In this document: positions 9,580-14,777 of the stretch, piece after piece
Layout of the letters: each line of letters starts with the position of its first letter
How positions within the stretch are numbered: the stretch's first letter is position 1
DNA from: Firmicutes bacterium ADurb.Bin153
GTDB lineage: Bacteria > Bacillota > DTU025 > MWDF01
Assembly: GCA_002070415.1 (NCBI GenBank)
Contig: MWDF01000007.1
Location: forward strand, 1 to 64,000
Length of the DNA stretch: 64,000 nt
Direction of reading: 5' to 3'
Position numbers and translations under genes: made by a program
The notes under the pieces: generated by a model
Told to the model about the DNA's origin: nothing
What the model saw: only the letters and a program-made list of their open reading frames with translations
The model's database searches: none

Positions 9580-10350
9580 CTATAGCGCAGAATATTTCGA
9601 GATCTTAAGAAGGATGCGGCCCTTCTTCGTGACCGGGCCCTCCTCTTCGACTATCATCCTTCCCCTTCCCCTCATCACTATCGTGTCGCCCTGCTTCACC
9701 CTGGCAGAGGGGTCCGTCACGGTCCTGCCGTTCAGCTTGGCCCTTCCTATCTCTATCTCCTGGGCGAGCCTCGTCCTGCTGGCCGGGAAGCCGCATGCCG
9801 CGACGGCATCAAGCCTCATGGAGTTCACCGTGGACTTTATCTCGCGGCGCGCCTGCCCAGGGAAGGACAGCTCTGTCGGGTCCGATTCAACCACCTCGAA
9901 AGGCAGCCCTCCGATGTCGACGCCCTTTGACAGAAGCCTCGCCACGGCACCGGCGGAGACGATGGCGCCTATCCCGCCCTCGGTCCTGAACACGTCCCCG
10001 ATGTCGGATCCCGCAACGCCAGAAGCCCTCACGTACGCGACCGTCTCCTCAGGGTCCGCCTGGGCCCCCTTTATCAGGATATACCCCAGGGAAGGGTCGA
10101 ATCCCTCCCAGTCGAACCCCGCCGGGGCCACTGCTATCTTCGCCCTTTGGGCGCCCCTGTAGCCCCCGAAGGGCCTCGCGTCTATCCCGGCCGCCTCGTC
10201 AAGCACCTGCCTTGCGGCGCCGACCGACGCGGCATCCATGAAGGCGGTGGTTCTCGGCCTTCCGTCCGCCGCCGCCTCCTCGCACGCCTTCGCCAGCAGG
10301 GCGGCCTCGCCCGCATCGAGCGCCTTGCCGAATTTCTCCAATAGGCCCAA
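9580..10350 (-). CDS. ylmH: YlmH family S4-domain RNA-binding protein
   Basis: 256 aa. The N-terminal two thirds form the YlmH-specific domain (about 25-165: FMDAASVGAARQVLDE, GFDPSLGYILIKG, VGDIGDVFRTEGG-like segment). The C-terminal S4 domain spans about 178-245 (MRLDAVAACGFPASRTRLAQEIEIGRAKLNG). S4 proteins bind structured RNA, and B. subtilis YlmH (RqcP2) is reported to be associated with ribosome quality control, which would fit rqcH in the same window. Start TTG 10350, 6 nt after yggS. Confidence 0.9.
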   Translation of the reverse strand: MGLLEKFGKALDAGEAALLAKACEEAAADGRPRTTAFMDAASVGAARQVLDEAAGIDARPFGGYRGAQRAKIAVAPAGFDWEGFDPSLGYILIKGAQADPEETVAYVRASGVAGSDIGDVFRTEGGIGAIVSAGAVARLLSKGVDIGGLPFEVVESDPTELSFPGQARREIKSTVNSMRLDAVAACGFPASRTRLAQEIEIGRAKLNGRTVTDPSARVKQGDTIVMRGRGRMIVEEEGPVTKKGRILLKISKYSAL

Positions 10351-10356
10351 GCCAGC

Positions 10357-11046
10357 TCACCTCTCGCCGAATATTGCCCTGCCGATCCTCACCATCGTCG
10401 AGCCTTCCGATATAGCTTCCTCGAAATCGGCGGACATCCCCATGGACAGTATGTCGAAGCCGCCGCGTCCCATTCTTGCCGCCCTAAGCCGCTCGAAAAG
10501 GGCCCTTGCCGCCGGGAAGTAGGACGATGAGCCCTCGAACGGGGGTATCACCATGATGCCCCTGACGTTAAGCGAGCCGAACCCGTCCAGCTTTAAAAGC
10601 AGCCCCTCGAGCGCTTCAGGCGCTATGCCGCCTTTGCTCCGCTCGTCGGCGATGTTCACCTGCGCCAGCACGTCCATGCGCCTTCCGAGCTCCGAGCACG
10701 CCCTGTCGAGCGCCGCAGCGGTGCTCTCCGAATCTATGCTCTGCACTGTCGTGAATATCCTGGCGGCCTTGCGGGCCTTGTTCCTCTGCAGCCCGCCGAC
10801 CAGATGCAGCATCGCGCCCGTAGGCAGCGAGCCCGCCTTGGATTCCGCCTCCTGCACGTAGTTCTCCCCGAACTCGAATATGCCGGCCCTGTACGCCTCT
10901 ATGACGGCCTCTGCGGGCTTCGTCTTGCTGACGGCGACCACCCTGACCGTGCCGGGTGCAATACCCGCCCGATCTTCGGCGGCGCGCACCCTGTCGAGGA
11001 GGCGCCTTACGCGCCCATCTATGGCGCCAAGACCGGGTTCAACCAT
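10357..11046 (-). CDS. yggS: PLP homeostasis protein, YggS/PROSC family
   Basis: 229 aa single-domain TIM barrel related to alanine racemase. Binds pyridoxal phosphate and buffers the free cofactor; no enzyme activity is established for the family. PLP lysine K41 lies in VAVSKTKP. Further family motifs are FGENYVQEA, HLVGGLQRNKA (commonly HxIGxLQxNK) and the C-terminal LSMGMSADFEEAISEGSTMVRIGRAIFG phosphate-binding region. ATG 11046 overlaps the upstream gene's stop by 8 nt. In Firmicutes this is ylmE in the same cluster; sepF and yggT, usually next to it, are absent here. Confidence 0.95.
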   Translation of the reverse strand: MVEPGLGAIDGRVRRLLDRVRAAEDRAGIAPGTVRVVAVSKTKPAEAVIEAYRAGIFEFGENYVQEAESKAGSLPTGAMLHLVGGLQRNKARKAARIFTTVQSIDSESTAAALDRACSELGRRMDVLAQVNIADERSKGGIAPEALEGLLLKLDGFGSLNVRGIMVIPPFEGSSSYFPAARALFERLRAARMGRGGFDILSMGMSADFEEAISEGSTMVRIGRAIFGER

Positions 11047-12289
11047 CGTACTTCACCTTGTCTCCCTGCCTGAGCTGGTCGGAGCTTACCGCGGCCTCCC
11101 CGTTCACGATGCCTAGCACATCCACTTCAATCAGCACGAACTTGTCCTTCCTTAGGACGTGCACGTACGACCCGCCCTCCCCGGTCGTTATGGCCCTCGC
11201 CGGGATGATCAGTCCCGAGTGGCTCTCAAGGAGCAGCTCCACGTCGACGGCCCTCATGTTCGTCATCGAGGAGACGTACCTGTCGATCGACATGTGCGCT
11301 ACGACTGCGCCTGAACCGTCGACCTTCGACCTTCTGACCTTCGCCGTGACCTTCTCCGAGGACAGCCTCGTGAACCTCACCTTCTGCACGGCCCCCGCTT
11401 TCAGCAGCTCGGGGTCCACTCCTACGGCATACAGCAGGAAGTCGGTGCTTATGCTGCCGATCTCCCTGAAGGCCACGTCCCCCGCTTCGATCTCGTCTCC
11501 CTGCGACCTTGCGCCCTTGCTTGCCTTCGCCGCTATCGTGGACGGCAGGTCCAGCAGCGACGGGTTCGCGGGCGAAAGCGTATCCTCCAGCCCGTCCCAG
11601 GAGTAGCTTATGACGGCGGGTCTTTCGGACCTCATCTTCACGCCGCCGGGATCGGCCTGCGCCTTCCCGGATGAGAGAACCGACTTCGAAAGGGCCAGCT
11701 TCTCCTCATATGCCGTTGCGGCCGCCTCCCTTTCCAGCACCGCCGCCGCGAGGACGTCACCGGCCTCGTCCAGCTGGGCCTTCACCCTGGCGGCCCCTTT
11801 CTGGTCCTCCTTCGCCTCGTACAGCTTGAGCTCCGACTGCTTCGCCGCAAGGAAGGACCTCGCCTCGTATTCCCGCGCCTCCGCCCCCTCAAGCTCCAAG
11901 AGCGCCGTGAGGAGCCCGGAATCCTCCTTGGCCTTCTCTTCGGGCGCCGCCTCCGAAAGGCCGCCGATTCTCGCCACGACCTCGCCCCTGGCCACCCTTG
12001 CGCCTTCGGGCGCCACTATGTTGAACGTTCCCGAATACGACGCCGTCACTGTCCTCTCGTCCCTTATGATCACCGCCTTTAGCGGCACGAACTTCTCCAG
12101 CGTCCCTTCCCTTGCGGCTATGGTGGGCGTTATCCTGCCTATCAGCGAATCGTACATCATCGAGTACGCGACCGTGAGGAACAGCAAGGCCATGGCCACT
12201 ACGACCCACAGCCTGAAACGCCTCAGGTAATCCGCCCTCTCGTTGGAGAAGGCGGTATCTTTCGTCCCCTTTGCCGGCTTTTCTTCCAT
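11039..12289 (-). CDS. HlyD-like single-pass membrane protein of the division cluster
   Basis: 416 aa from ATG 12289 (the frame continues upstream inside pgeF, but this ATG directly follows the pgeF stop). A basic cytoplasmic tail is followed by one membrane helix (about 28-50, WVVVAMALLFLTVAYSMMY), then a barrel/lipoyl-like segment (FNIVAPEGARVARGEVVARIGG, about 105-126). An Ala/Glu coiled coil (about 135-215) and a C-terminal beta-rich part come last. This is the layout of periplasmic adaptor (HlyD/membrane-fusion) proteins. No ABC or outer-membrane partner is adjacent. Similar proteins sit beside ylmE in many clostridial division clusters, so a structural role in division is possible. Confidence 0.72.
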   Translation of the reverse strand: MEEKPAKGTKDTAFSNERADYLRRFRLWVVVAMALLFLTVAYSMMYDSLIGRITPTIAAREGTLEKFVPLKAVIIRDERTVTASYSGTFNIVAPEGARVARGEVVARIGGLSEAAPEEKAKEDSGLLTALLELEGAEAREYEARSFLAAKQSELKLYEAKEDQKGAARVKAQLDEAGDVLAAAVLEREAAATAYEEKLALSKSVLSSGKAQADPGGVKMRSERPAVISYSWDGLEDTLSPANPSLLDLPSTIAAKASKGARSQGDEIEAGDVAFREIGSISTDFLLYAVGVDPELLKAGAVQKVRFTRLSSEKVTAKVRRSKVDGSGAVVAHMSIDRYVSSMTNMRAVDVELLLESHSGLIIPARAITTGEGGSYVHVLRKDKFVLIEVDVLGIVNGEAAVSSDQLRQGDKVKYDG

Positions 12290-12291
12290 CC

Positions 12292-13104
12292 TCAGACGGC
12301 TATGGCCGCTATCGCGGCCGAACGCCCGGTCCTCCCCCTGTCCCTCCTGTGCGAGAAGAACAGACCCTCCTCGCAGGAAGTGCATCCTTCGTACCTTTCT
12401 ATCCTGTCCGGGGCGAATCCGAGCCCTATGAGCCTGAGCTCGTTCATCAGGCCGAGGTCCGCCCTGGACTTTCCTCCTTCTGCCGTCAGCGCGGCGGCGC
12501 CTCCGGCGCCTGCCAGCGCCAGTGCCACATCATCGCCCACCTCGTAGCAGCAAGGACCCACACAGGGCCCGATCGCGGCCATGAAATCCCCGGCCCTTCC
12601 CTTGTCGAAGCCCATCCTTAATGCTAGCTTGACAGCTACATCCAGTACCGTGCCCCTCCATCCTGCGTGCGCGAGCCCTATCTTCCTCGCGGCCCTGTCG
12701 GCCACTACCACCGGCACGCAGTCCGCGAATGTGGAGATGAGCGCGACGCCCGCAATGGCCGTGTACATCCCGTCGGTAGAGGGAAAAGACTTGCCGTATT
12801 CGAGGCCTCCGCATCCTTTGAGGGCCTCGGTGACCTCTACGATCCTGTCCCCGTGCACCTGCCGCATGGCGGCGGCGGCCGAAGGGTCCAGGCCCAGGGC
12901 CTTAAGGGCCGCGGTCCTGTTCATCCTCACGTTCGCCGGATCGTCCGGCACCCCGAAACCCATGTTGAGCCCGTCGAAAGGACGAGGGCTCCATCCGCCC
13001 ATCCTCGTCGTGAACGCGGCAATGAAGCCCTCCTCTTCGAATATCGAGGATTCGATGAGCGCAAGCCCACCGTCCTTTGAGCGTATCCTAAGGCCCGCTC
13101 CCAT
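12292..13104 (-). CDS. pgeF: Purine nucleoside phosphorylase / laccase-domain protein (YfiH/YlmD family)
   Basis: 270 aa. Cu-oxidase_4 (DUF152) family. Zinc-site residues are visible: His in MRQVHGDRI (about 80-88), Cys in TFADCVPVVV (about 125-134) and His in GLAHAGWRGTV (about 142-152), with CCYEVG further on. Human FAMIN and bacterial relatives phosphorolyse adenosine and inosine; E. coli PgeF was also described as editing wrongly built peptidoglycan precursors, which would suit this operon. Equivalent to ylmD in Firmicutes clusters. Four nt after the Hint-like gene and 2 nt before the HlyD-like gene. Confidence 0.92.
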   Translation of the reverse strand: MGAGLRIRSKDGGLALIESSIFEEEGFIAAFTTRMGGWSPRPFDGLNMGFGVPDDPANVRMNRTAALKALGLDPSAAAAMRQVHGDRIVEVTEALKGCGGLEYGKSFPSTDGMYTAIAGVALISTFADCVPVVVADRAARKIGLAHAGWRGTVLDVAVKLALRMGFDKGRAGDFMAAIGPCVGPCCYEVGDDVALALAGAGGAAALTAEGGKSRADLGLMNELRLIGLGFAPDRIERYEGCTSCEEGLFFSHRRDRGRTGRSAAIAAIAV

Positions 13105-13108
13105 GGGG

Positions 13109-13666
13109 CTACTGTTTCCCCGCGAGGACCACTATCCCGTCGGCGACGATGTCGCCGGACGCGGTCTTGAGGAAATACAGCTTGATGCCCTCCGCGGGGA
13201 TCTTCTGCTTCTCCATCAGGCCCTGGCCCCTTACTATCACCTGTTTCCTGGGGTCCGTGTGCCCGTTCCTCAGCATCATGTAGTCGTGGAAGGACAGCGT
13301 ATCGCCCGCGGCGAGCTGCTCCACCTGCGTGACGGCCTTCTTTCCGCCCCTTATTATCGGCACTTCCGTGCCGCAGGCGAACCTGGCCTTGCCGGCGCGC
13401 ACCGACAGTGCGACTATCGATTCGTGCTCCCAGAAGCGCCTCCTGGCCACCTCTTCGACATCGGTCCAGCCCGTCGAGCACAGGACCTTGAAGTTGAAGC
13501 TCGCAGGGCCGTTCTCCTCCGGCTCCCTGTCGAGGTACGCGTCGAACCAGCCTACCTCCGTCTTTATCACCTGGGTGCCGTCCACGAGCAGCACTATCTC
13601 GGCGCCTTCGGGCAGGCCTCCCATGAAGTTCGGTTCCGTGTCATAGAGTCTTGTTTCTTGCGGCAT
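13109..13666 (-). CDS. Uncharacterised protein with Hint (hedgehog/intein)-like pattern, directly after ftsZ
   Basis: 185 aa, no signal peptide or membrane segment. Residues about 22-45 (AEIVLLVDGTQVIKTEVGW), 95-127 (ARFACGTEVPIIRGG, then VEQLAAGDTLSF) and 162-182 (KLYFLKTASGDIVADGIVVL) resemble the successive blocks of a Hint fold (DTxVxxxdG; THPhxxxxG...hxxLxxGDxh; hYxhxhxxxxxhhADGIhVHN). The splicing residues are missing: no N-terminal Cys/Ser nucleophile, Glu replaces the block B His, and there is no C-terminal His-Asn. It would therefore be a non-catalytic Hint domain. ATG 13666 has GGAG 11 nt upstream. Between ftsZ and pgeF it is probably co-transcribed with division genes. The fold call is inference from pattern only. 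Confidence 0.6.
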   Translation of the reverse strand: MPQETRLYDTEPNFMGGLPEGAEIVLLVDGTQVIKTEVGWFDAYLDREPEENGPASFNFKVLCSTGWTDVEEVARRRFWEHESIVALSVRAGKARFACGTEVPIIRGGKKAVTQVEQLAAGDTLSFHDYMMLRNGHTDPRKQVIVRGQGLMEKQKIPAEGIKLYFLKTASGDIVADGIVVLAGKQ

Positions 13667-13682
13667 ATGCTGGTTTTCTCCT

Positions 13683-14777
13683 TTAGCGCCTCAGGAAAGG
13701 CGGGATGTCGTCATCATCTTCGTCTGGTGCCGGCGCGGTCCTTGCCGCGGCCCTATTTTCATCCTGATAGGCGGGCCTTGCCGCCTGGGGCCTCCTCTGT
13801 GCGTACCTTGACTGCGTCGAGGGCTGCTCGCTGAAGCCGGCGGCTATGACCGTTATCTTCACCTTGCCCTCCATGGACGGGTCGACCACAGAGCCGAATA
13901 TTACCATGGCTTCGGGGTCCACGCTCTCGTGGATGTGCTCGGCGGCCTTGTAGACCTCGCTTAGCGTCAGGTCGTCGCCTCCGGTCACGTTGAACAGCAC
14001 TCCCTTCGCCCCCTGGATCGAAGCTTCCAGCAGCGGGCTGGAGATCGCCTCCTTGGCGGCGATGAGGGCCCTGTCCTCGCCCTCGGCTATGCCTATGCCC
14101 ATCAGGGCGGAGCCGGCGTTGGTCATGATGGTCTTCACGTCCGCGAAGTCCACGTTGACCTCCCCTGCCTTGACTATTACGTCCGTTATGCCCTGTATGC
14201 CCTGCCTGAGCACGTCGTCGGCCACCCTGAAGGCCTCGGAGAGCCTGGTGTTCTTCTCTACTACTGTAAGCAGCCTCTCGTTGGGTATTATGATCAGGGT
14301 GTCGACCTTGCCCCTCAGCTCATCTATCCCCTTGGCGGCATAGTCCGCCCGCCTCACTCCCTCGAAGTTGAACGGCTTCGTCACGACGCCGACCGTCAGC
14401 GCCCCGGATTTCCTAGCCAGCTCGGCGATGAGAGGACTCGCCCCGGTCCCGGTGCCCCCTCCCATCCCCGCGGTCACGAACACCATGTCGGCGCCTTCCA
14501 GCGCCTCGGCGATGCCGTCGGTGCTCTCCTCGGCGGCCTGCTTGCCGATCTCGGGGTTCGCCCCTGCTCCGAGCCCTTTCGTCAGGTTCGCGCCCAGCTG
14601 CACCTTCTTGGGAGCCAGAGAACGCGACAGGGCCTGCGCGTCGGTGTTCATGCTTATGAATTCCACTCCGTCTATGCCGGCGTCAACCATCCTGTTGACG
14701 GCGTTGCACCCCGCACCGCCCACTCCAACGACTTTTATCTTGGCCGACCCGAGGCCTTCGGGCTCAACTACGAACAT
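13683..14777 (-). CDS. ftsZ: Cell division GTPase FtsZ
   Basis: 364 aa. Tubulin homologue that polymerises into the division ring. The nucleotide-binding half (about 13-190) has [20 protein letters not shown] and the tubulin signature GGGTGTG at 107-113. The T7 loop region [11 protein letters not shown] provides the catalytic Asp for the next subunit. A short Pro/Ala/Arg linker leads to the C-terminal peptide DDIPPFLRR (356-364) that binds FtsA and other partners. ATG 14777 has GAGGGGG upstream. Follows ftsA by 17 nt at the end of the classical dcw order. Confidence 0.98.

Follow-up and report, generated by a model that had tools for sequence, protein, structure and literature searches.

On the minus strand of the window (the whole stretch of DNA that was analysed, 64,000 nucleotides), a single gene lies between ftsZ and pgeF in the order murC-murB-ftsQ-ftsA-ftsZ-Hint gene-pgeF-hlyD-yggS-ylmH-divIVA, in which the genes from ftsA to divIVA are named from Pfam matches and murC, murB and ftsQ from reading the translations (Table 1). 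A sequence-only reading had proposed, without stating the strand, that this open reading frame encodes a splicing-dead protein of the Hint fold; the open reading frame was confirmed, on the minus strand. It is preceded by an AAAGGAG-type Shine-Dalgarno sequence, which is kept in genome G002, and its product begins with an extension seen only in the window's genus, for which disorder is predicted (residues 1-13 with pLDDT below 50 in the AlphaFold2 model). Further downstream, yggS and then directly ylmH occupy positions 9580-11046. Many genomes of the phylum have a HlyD_2 family gene (PF12700) adjoining yggS, with no clear export system alongside.

Table 1. Features of the Hint-gene locus and of the encoded protein in the window
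Feature	Position	Strand	Remarks
ftsZ	13683..14777	-	Pfam; 16-nt gap between ftsZ stop and Hint-fold gene
Stand-alone Hint-fold gene	13109..13666	-	ATG at 13666; 185 aa; product predicted to be catalytically dead
N-terminal extension, 14 residues	13625..13666	-	Window's genus only; from alignment and model
Block A region, MGGLPEGA	13601..13624	-	Orthologues xxC(L/V)xEDT; nucleophile replaced by Gly17
GWT...RRxxWExE, residues 66-82	13421..13471	-	Most conserved stretch of the family, by alignment
Block B region, FACGTE, residues 96-101	13364..13381	-	Orthologues LTGxHx; Thr replaced by Ala97, His by Thr100
Block F/G region, KLYFLKTASGDIVADGIVVLA, residues 163-183 approx.	13118..13180	-	Orthologues VYQLETxDGTLVANDFLVHxx
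pgeF/ylmD	12292..13104	-	Pfam PF02578; 4-nt gap after Hint-fold gene
HlyD_2 family membrane protein gene	11039..12289	-	Pfam PF12700

Predicted fold

Searched alone, the window protein gave no match to any Pfam or NCBIfam profile and no Hint sequence match in the PDB, so that the motifs read from its sequence lay beyond confirmation by a simple profile search. A sequence search of the PDB with the family profile likewise returned no significant intein match, inteins appearing only below significance; the best matches in that search, stretches of WD40 repeats, were judged to be due to chance. Once the orthologues and the predicted structure are used, the resemblance to Hint domains is far above chance. 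Among the relatives, matches to the Pfam profiles Intein_splicing (five members) and Hint (one member) all fall short of the curated cut-offs, and the match to NCBIfam intein_Nterm starts exactly at Cys4 in orthologues L024, L018 and L019. Orthologue L022 scores above the cut-off of NCBIfam intein_Cterm (19.1 versus 15.6 bits; model positions 1-22 of 24), with a match that stops two positions before the end of the model.

AlphaFold2 models, built with a shallow alignment of 11 sequences, were obtained for the window protein (pLDDT 80.6, pTM 0.76) and for orthologue L024 (pLDDT 89.0, pTM 0.84). When the window model was compared with the PDB by Foldseek, all 50 matches listed were inteins, Hedgehog-Hint domains or BIL domains, with a best E-value of 6.6e-8 and TM-scores of up to 0.82 on the target. 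The L024 model gave the same result (50 of the 50 matches listed), and neither search had a non-Hint fold among the 50. The only helix of four or more residues in the window model spans residues 38-45. The proposed Hint fold is therefore borne out by the model and by structural matches over the full length of the protein, with which the motifs of the orthologues agree, and assignment of the window protein to this fold is, as a prediction, well supported.

Catalytic residues

The three blocks on which the original reading was founded are all present, namely IVLLVDGT (residues 24-31), GTEVPIIRGG...VEQLAAGDTL (99-124) and TASGDIVADGIVVL (168-181), and the family alignment confirms that the catalytic residues said to be missing are indeed absent. 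The N-terminal Cys/Ser nucleophile, which is Cys4 in all nine orthologues of the other two families, f2 and f3, is lacking in the window protein, as is the block B Thr, also present in 9/9; both were lost only in the window's genus and are kept in every f2/f3 member. The block B His is found in six of the nine f2/f3 members (as TGxH) and is Gln in the other three, while the penultimate His is kept in five of eight, lost in three and replaced by Leu181 in the window protein, where Ala182 occupies the position of the terminal Asn. Each of these two His residues varies inside one genus (g4, L022 versus L024; g6, L018 versus L019). Neither the terminal Asn nor the F-block Asp occurs in any of the ten complete family members aligned. 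The chemistry of class 3 inteins was excluded, there being no Cys at position F4 (Phe165 in the window protein; Q, E or S in other members), and the two residues of the Hedgehog acyl shift, the Cys and the block B His, are both absent from the window protein. There are no exteins: the f2/f3 Hint domain starts three residues into the protein, and the window protein has only its disordered extension of 14 residues.

Catalytic residues have, by the alignment, been lost stepwise across the family. On sequence grounds, splicing and Asn-dependent C-terminal cleavage are ruled out for the whole family; an N-terminal acyl shift is ruled out for the window protein, which also lacks the residues that BIL-type self-cleavage should require, and appears unlikely in the f2/f3 members. 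Loss of catalysis in the window protein is thus well supported. The most conserved stretch of the family lies elsewhere, in the segment GWT...RRxxWExE, where G66, W67, R75, R76, W79, E80 and E82 are invariant, and this segment is a candidate partner-binding surface.

Distribution and selection

Whole-genome searches identified orthologues in 11 of the order's 12 genomes, and these 12 also make up the whole class as sampled. The twelfth is G001, an assembly of 77% completeness in which ftsZ was likewise undetected, so the absence of the Hint gene from this genome is uninformative. A family profile run against 399 genomes of the phylum revealed no other convincing member; two weak matches, L038 and L039, were rejected since the open reading frames concerned read, from their translations, as a RecJ-like exonuclease and a P-type ATPase. 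Searches of IMG/VR, plasmids and phages returned no relatives, and PHROGs gave no significant match. Within the order, no match to Pfam Intein_splicing was obtained at E ≤ 0.1, in a search that missed the Hint genes themselves too, and a resident donor intein was therefore not found. Nor was a Hint-like gene present beside the related hlyD genes examined elsewhere in the phylum, at 20 loci; where these loci were readable, the gene upstream of hlyD was pgeF, nrdR-like, phoU-like or another gene (those besides pgeF being named from reading the translations). Within this sampling, the Hint gene is specific to this order of Bacillota.

The reading frame is open in every complete copy of the gene. 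Values of dN/dS were 0.163 between two species of the window's genus (in family f1), 0.21 within g4 and 0.17 within g6, in the range of those of pgeF, hlyD, ylmH and divIVA, and purifying selection at dN/dS 0.16 argues that the gene is no decaying intein pseudogene. Between the two f1 species the Hint protein is 87% identical, above the products of pgeF, yggS, hlyD, ylmH and divIVA (76-83%); between f1 and f2 it is the most divergent of the genes compared (26% identity). In the family tree the stem leading to f1 is long and the tips are short, a pattern that suggests accelerated change along the f1 branch, where the catalytic residues went, followed by constraint.

Locus history

In f2/f3 the gene order is ftsZ-spoIIGA-sigE-sigG-spoIIR-ymxH-Hint gene-(pgeF in f3)-hlyD-yggS-ylmH-divIVA, in which SpoIIR, the PRC barrel protein and one sigma factor were identified by Pfam and spoIIGA and the other sigma gene from the translations. 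The gene is thus kept upstream of (pgeF-)hlyD-yggS-ylmH-divIVA, and conservation of position in orthologues, which had been proposed as a check, is found on this side of the locus. The window's genus lacks the sporulation block (L018:4469-8414; L023:6788-10572) at this locus, at 13666-13683 of the window, and it is because of this that the Hint gene abuts ftsZ there and is probably read from the ftsZ side. In f2/f3 it is preceded by a sigma-A-type promoter, TTGAAA-N17-TATACT, as read from the sequences. A partnership with FtsZ or PgeF, which had been suggested from adjacency in the window, is weakened by these findings: adjacency to ftsZ follows from loss of the sporulation block, the f2/f3 gene stands five sporulation-related genes away from ftsZ, and pgeF, matched at the f1 and f3 loci, has no match at f2 loci. 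A link to FtsZ is not specifically supported. The constant downstream neighbour, in every readable locus, is the HlyD_2 gene.

Discussion

Inteins and their relatives are usually viewed as selfish or autoprocessing elements, either working or decaying, and we know of no earlier conserved, non-catalytic, stand-alone Hint protein. The family described here suggests a third fate, in which the Hint fold is kept under selection, in a division gene cluster, after catalysis has been lost. The description of the window protein as stand-alone, splicing-dead and repurposed finds support, taken together, in the model, the orthologues, the alignment and the evidence of selection. We consider it reasonably probable that it is an order-specific, non-catalytic Hint protein whose role in the division/envelope operon is that of a binding module, where the binding and the partner are what we infer. 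The stronger proposition, that a catalysis-free Hint domain has been fully exapted as a fixed and selected part of the cell-division/envelope operon of the order, we hold tentatively, at slightly short of an even chance.

Our working model is that the ancestor of the order acquired the Hint fold in its division/envelope gene cluster, most simply in a single event, and that the fold has since been retained there without catalytic function. In the window's genus the protein should neither splice nor cleave by any known Hint route, because the nucleophile, the block B Thr and His, the penultimate His and the terminal Asn are all absent. It may instead be a cytoplasmic binding module, contacting a product of its own operon through the horseshoe groove that holds the extein in active relatives, through the family-specific RRxxWExE segment, or through both. 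The likeliest single partner would be the HlyD_2 membrane protein, since its gene is the sole neighbour kept downstream in every readable locus.

Each of the known Hint systems shares part of this picture. The predicted models have the fold of class 1 mini-inteins (TFIIB Mvu mini-intein, 5o9i; NrdJ-1, 8ubs) over the whole length, and the block A, B and F/G signatures of these inteins also occur in the orthologues, but the family has no host protein, terminal Asn or +1 nucleophile, and the window's genus has lost every catalytic residue. BIL domains (2lwy) likewise represent a bacterial Hint fold outside conserved housekeeping exteins; they are self-cleaving and are found in hypervariable regions of non-conserved proteins (PMC7765530), whereas the window protein is stand-alone, at a fixed locus across the order, and without the residues for cleavage. 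The Hog-Hint domain of Hedgehog (1at0) shares the fold of the window model, yet the window protein has no upstream signalling domain and neither the Cys nor the His of the acyl shift. The literature search yielded a single splicing-dead stand-alone intein, Arth_1007 of Arthrobacter FB24, which is similarly an intein-type protein without a recognisable host protein; it was judged a decayed pseudogene by its authors, who expect inactive inteins to gather mutations (PMC3196547), in contrast to the window family, which is conserved across the order under purifying selection.

The gene could also be viewed as a decaying, functionless intein pseudogene like Arth_1007, and the loss of all catalytic residues, the lack of any host protein around the Hint domain and the greatest f1-f2 divergence of the genes compared are what such decay could produce. 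An open frame in all complete copies at dN/dS of 0.16-0.21 largely refutes it, however, and with identity between two species above that of five neighbouring genes, and a promoter and Shine-Dalgarno sequence that are conserved, we find it very hard to credit. The chance that the protein has some other fold, and that its likeness to Hint domains is an artefact of prediction, seems to us close to negligible: the alignment is shallow and single-sequence searches with the window protein are empty, but the sequence motifs are in agreement with both models (pLDDT 81 and 89), and the 50 matches listed in either search contain no other fold.

Two further explanations were weighed. Given the invariant Cys4 and block B Thr, the f2/f3 domain could retain residual chemistry, performing an N-S acyl shift at Cys4 and clipping off its own tripeptide, fMet-x-x, an ability lost secondarily in the window's genus; the Cys indeed always stands exactly two residues after the start Met, and only small residues or Asn (G, S, C, N) occur at position -1. 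We nevertheless regard this as unlikely. No member has the F-block Asp or the terminal Asn, and a tripeptide would make an odd substrate. The block B His is replaced in three of nine members and the penultimate His in three of eight, with changes inside g4 and g6; the block B His is described as highly conserved, and its mutation as resulting in inactive precursor or inhibited cleavage (PMC7765530). That the Hint protein replaces a missing FtsZ anchor, SepF, appears more doubtful still. No SepF (PF04472) was detected in the order's 12 genomes, whereas 175 of 200 phylum genomes have it, and the Hint gene lies in the same operon region; yet more than a dozen other SepF-less genomes of the phylum have no Hint gene, and we do not take the lack of SepF as evidence of replacement. 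FtsA, moreover, is present (Pfam), the Hint gene is apart from ftsZ in sporulating relatives, and the ends of the AlphaFold2 model offer no candidate membrane-binding helix, the only helix of four or more residues being that at residues 38-45.

The family supplies a graded set of intermediates, from those that keep Cys and Thr, through loss of His, to loss of all, on which both the loss of splicing chemistry and the gain of a new role become testable.

The start region of the gene outside the window's genus has features of its own. A Cys-rich leader peptide (CYTFACWRRC) that could be read before the Hint domain of relatives was discarded, as the codons read as WRR are in fact the Shine-Dalgarno sequence TGGAGG, and the start follows downstream. 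The combined -10 box and Shine-Dalgarno motif occurs once per genome in seven genomes, each time before the Hint gene, and at no other site across the order's 12 genomes. Any hairpin around the f2/f3 Shine-Dalgarno sequence is of non-significant energy (z -0.1 to -1.5). The promoter/leader TATACTTnCGCCTnCTGGAGGCGATG is strongly conserved (L024:7017-7042, with equivalents in G003, G004, G005, G007, G008 and G011) and contains an inverted repeat, CGCCT/AGGCG, that spans the Shine-Dalgarno sequence; this leader is a possible autoregulatory site.
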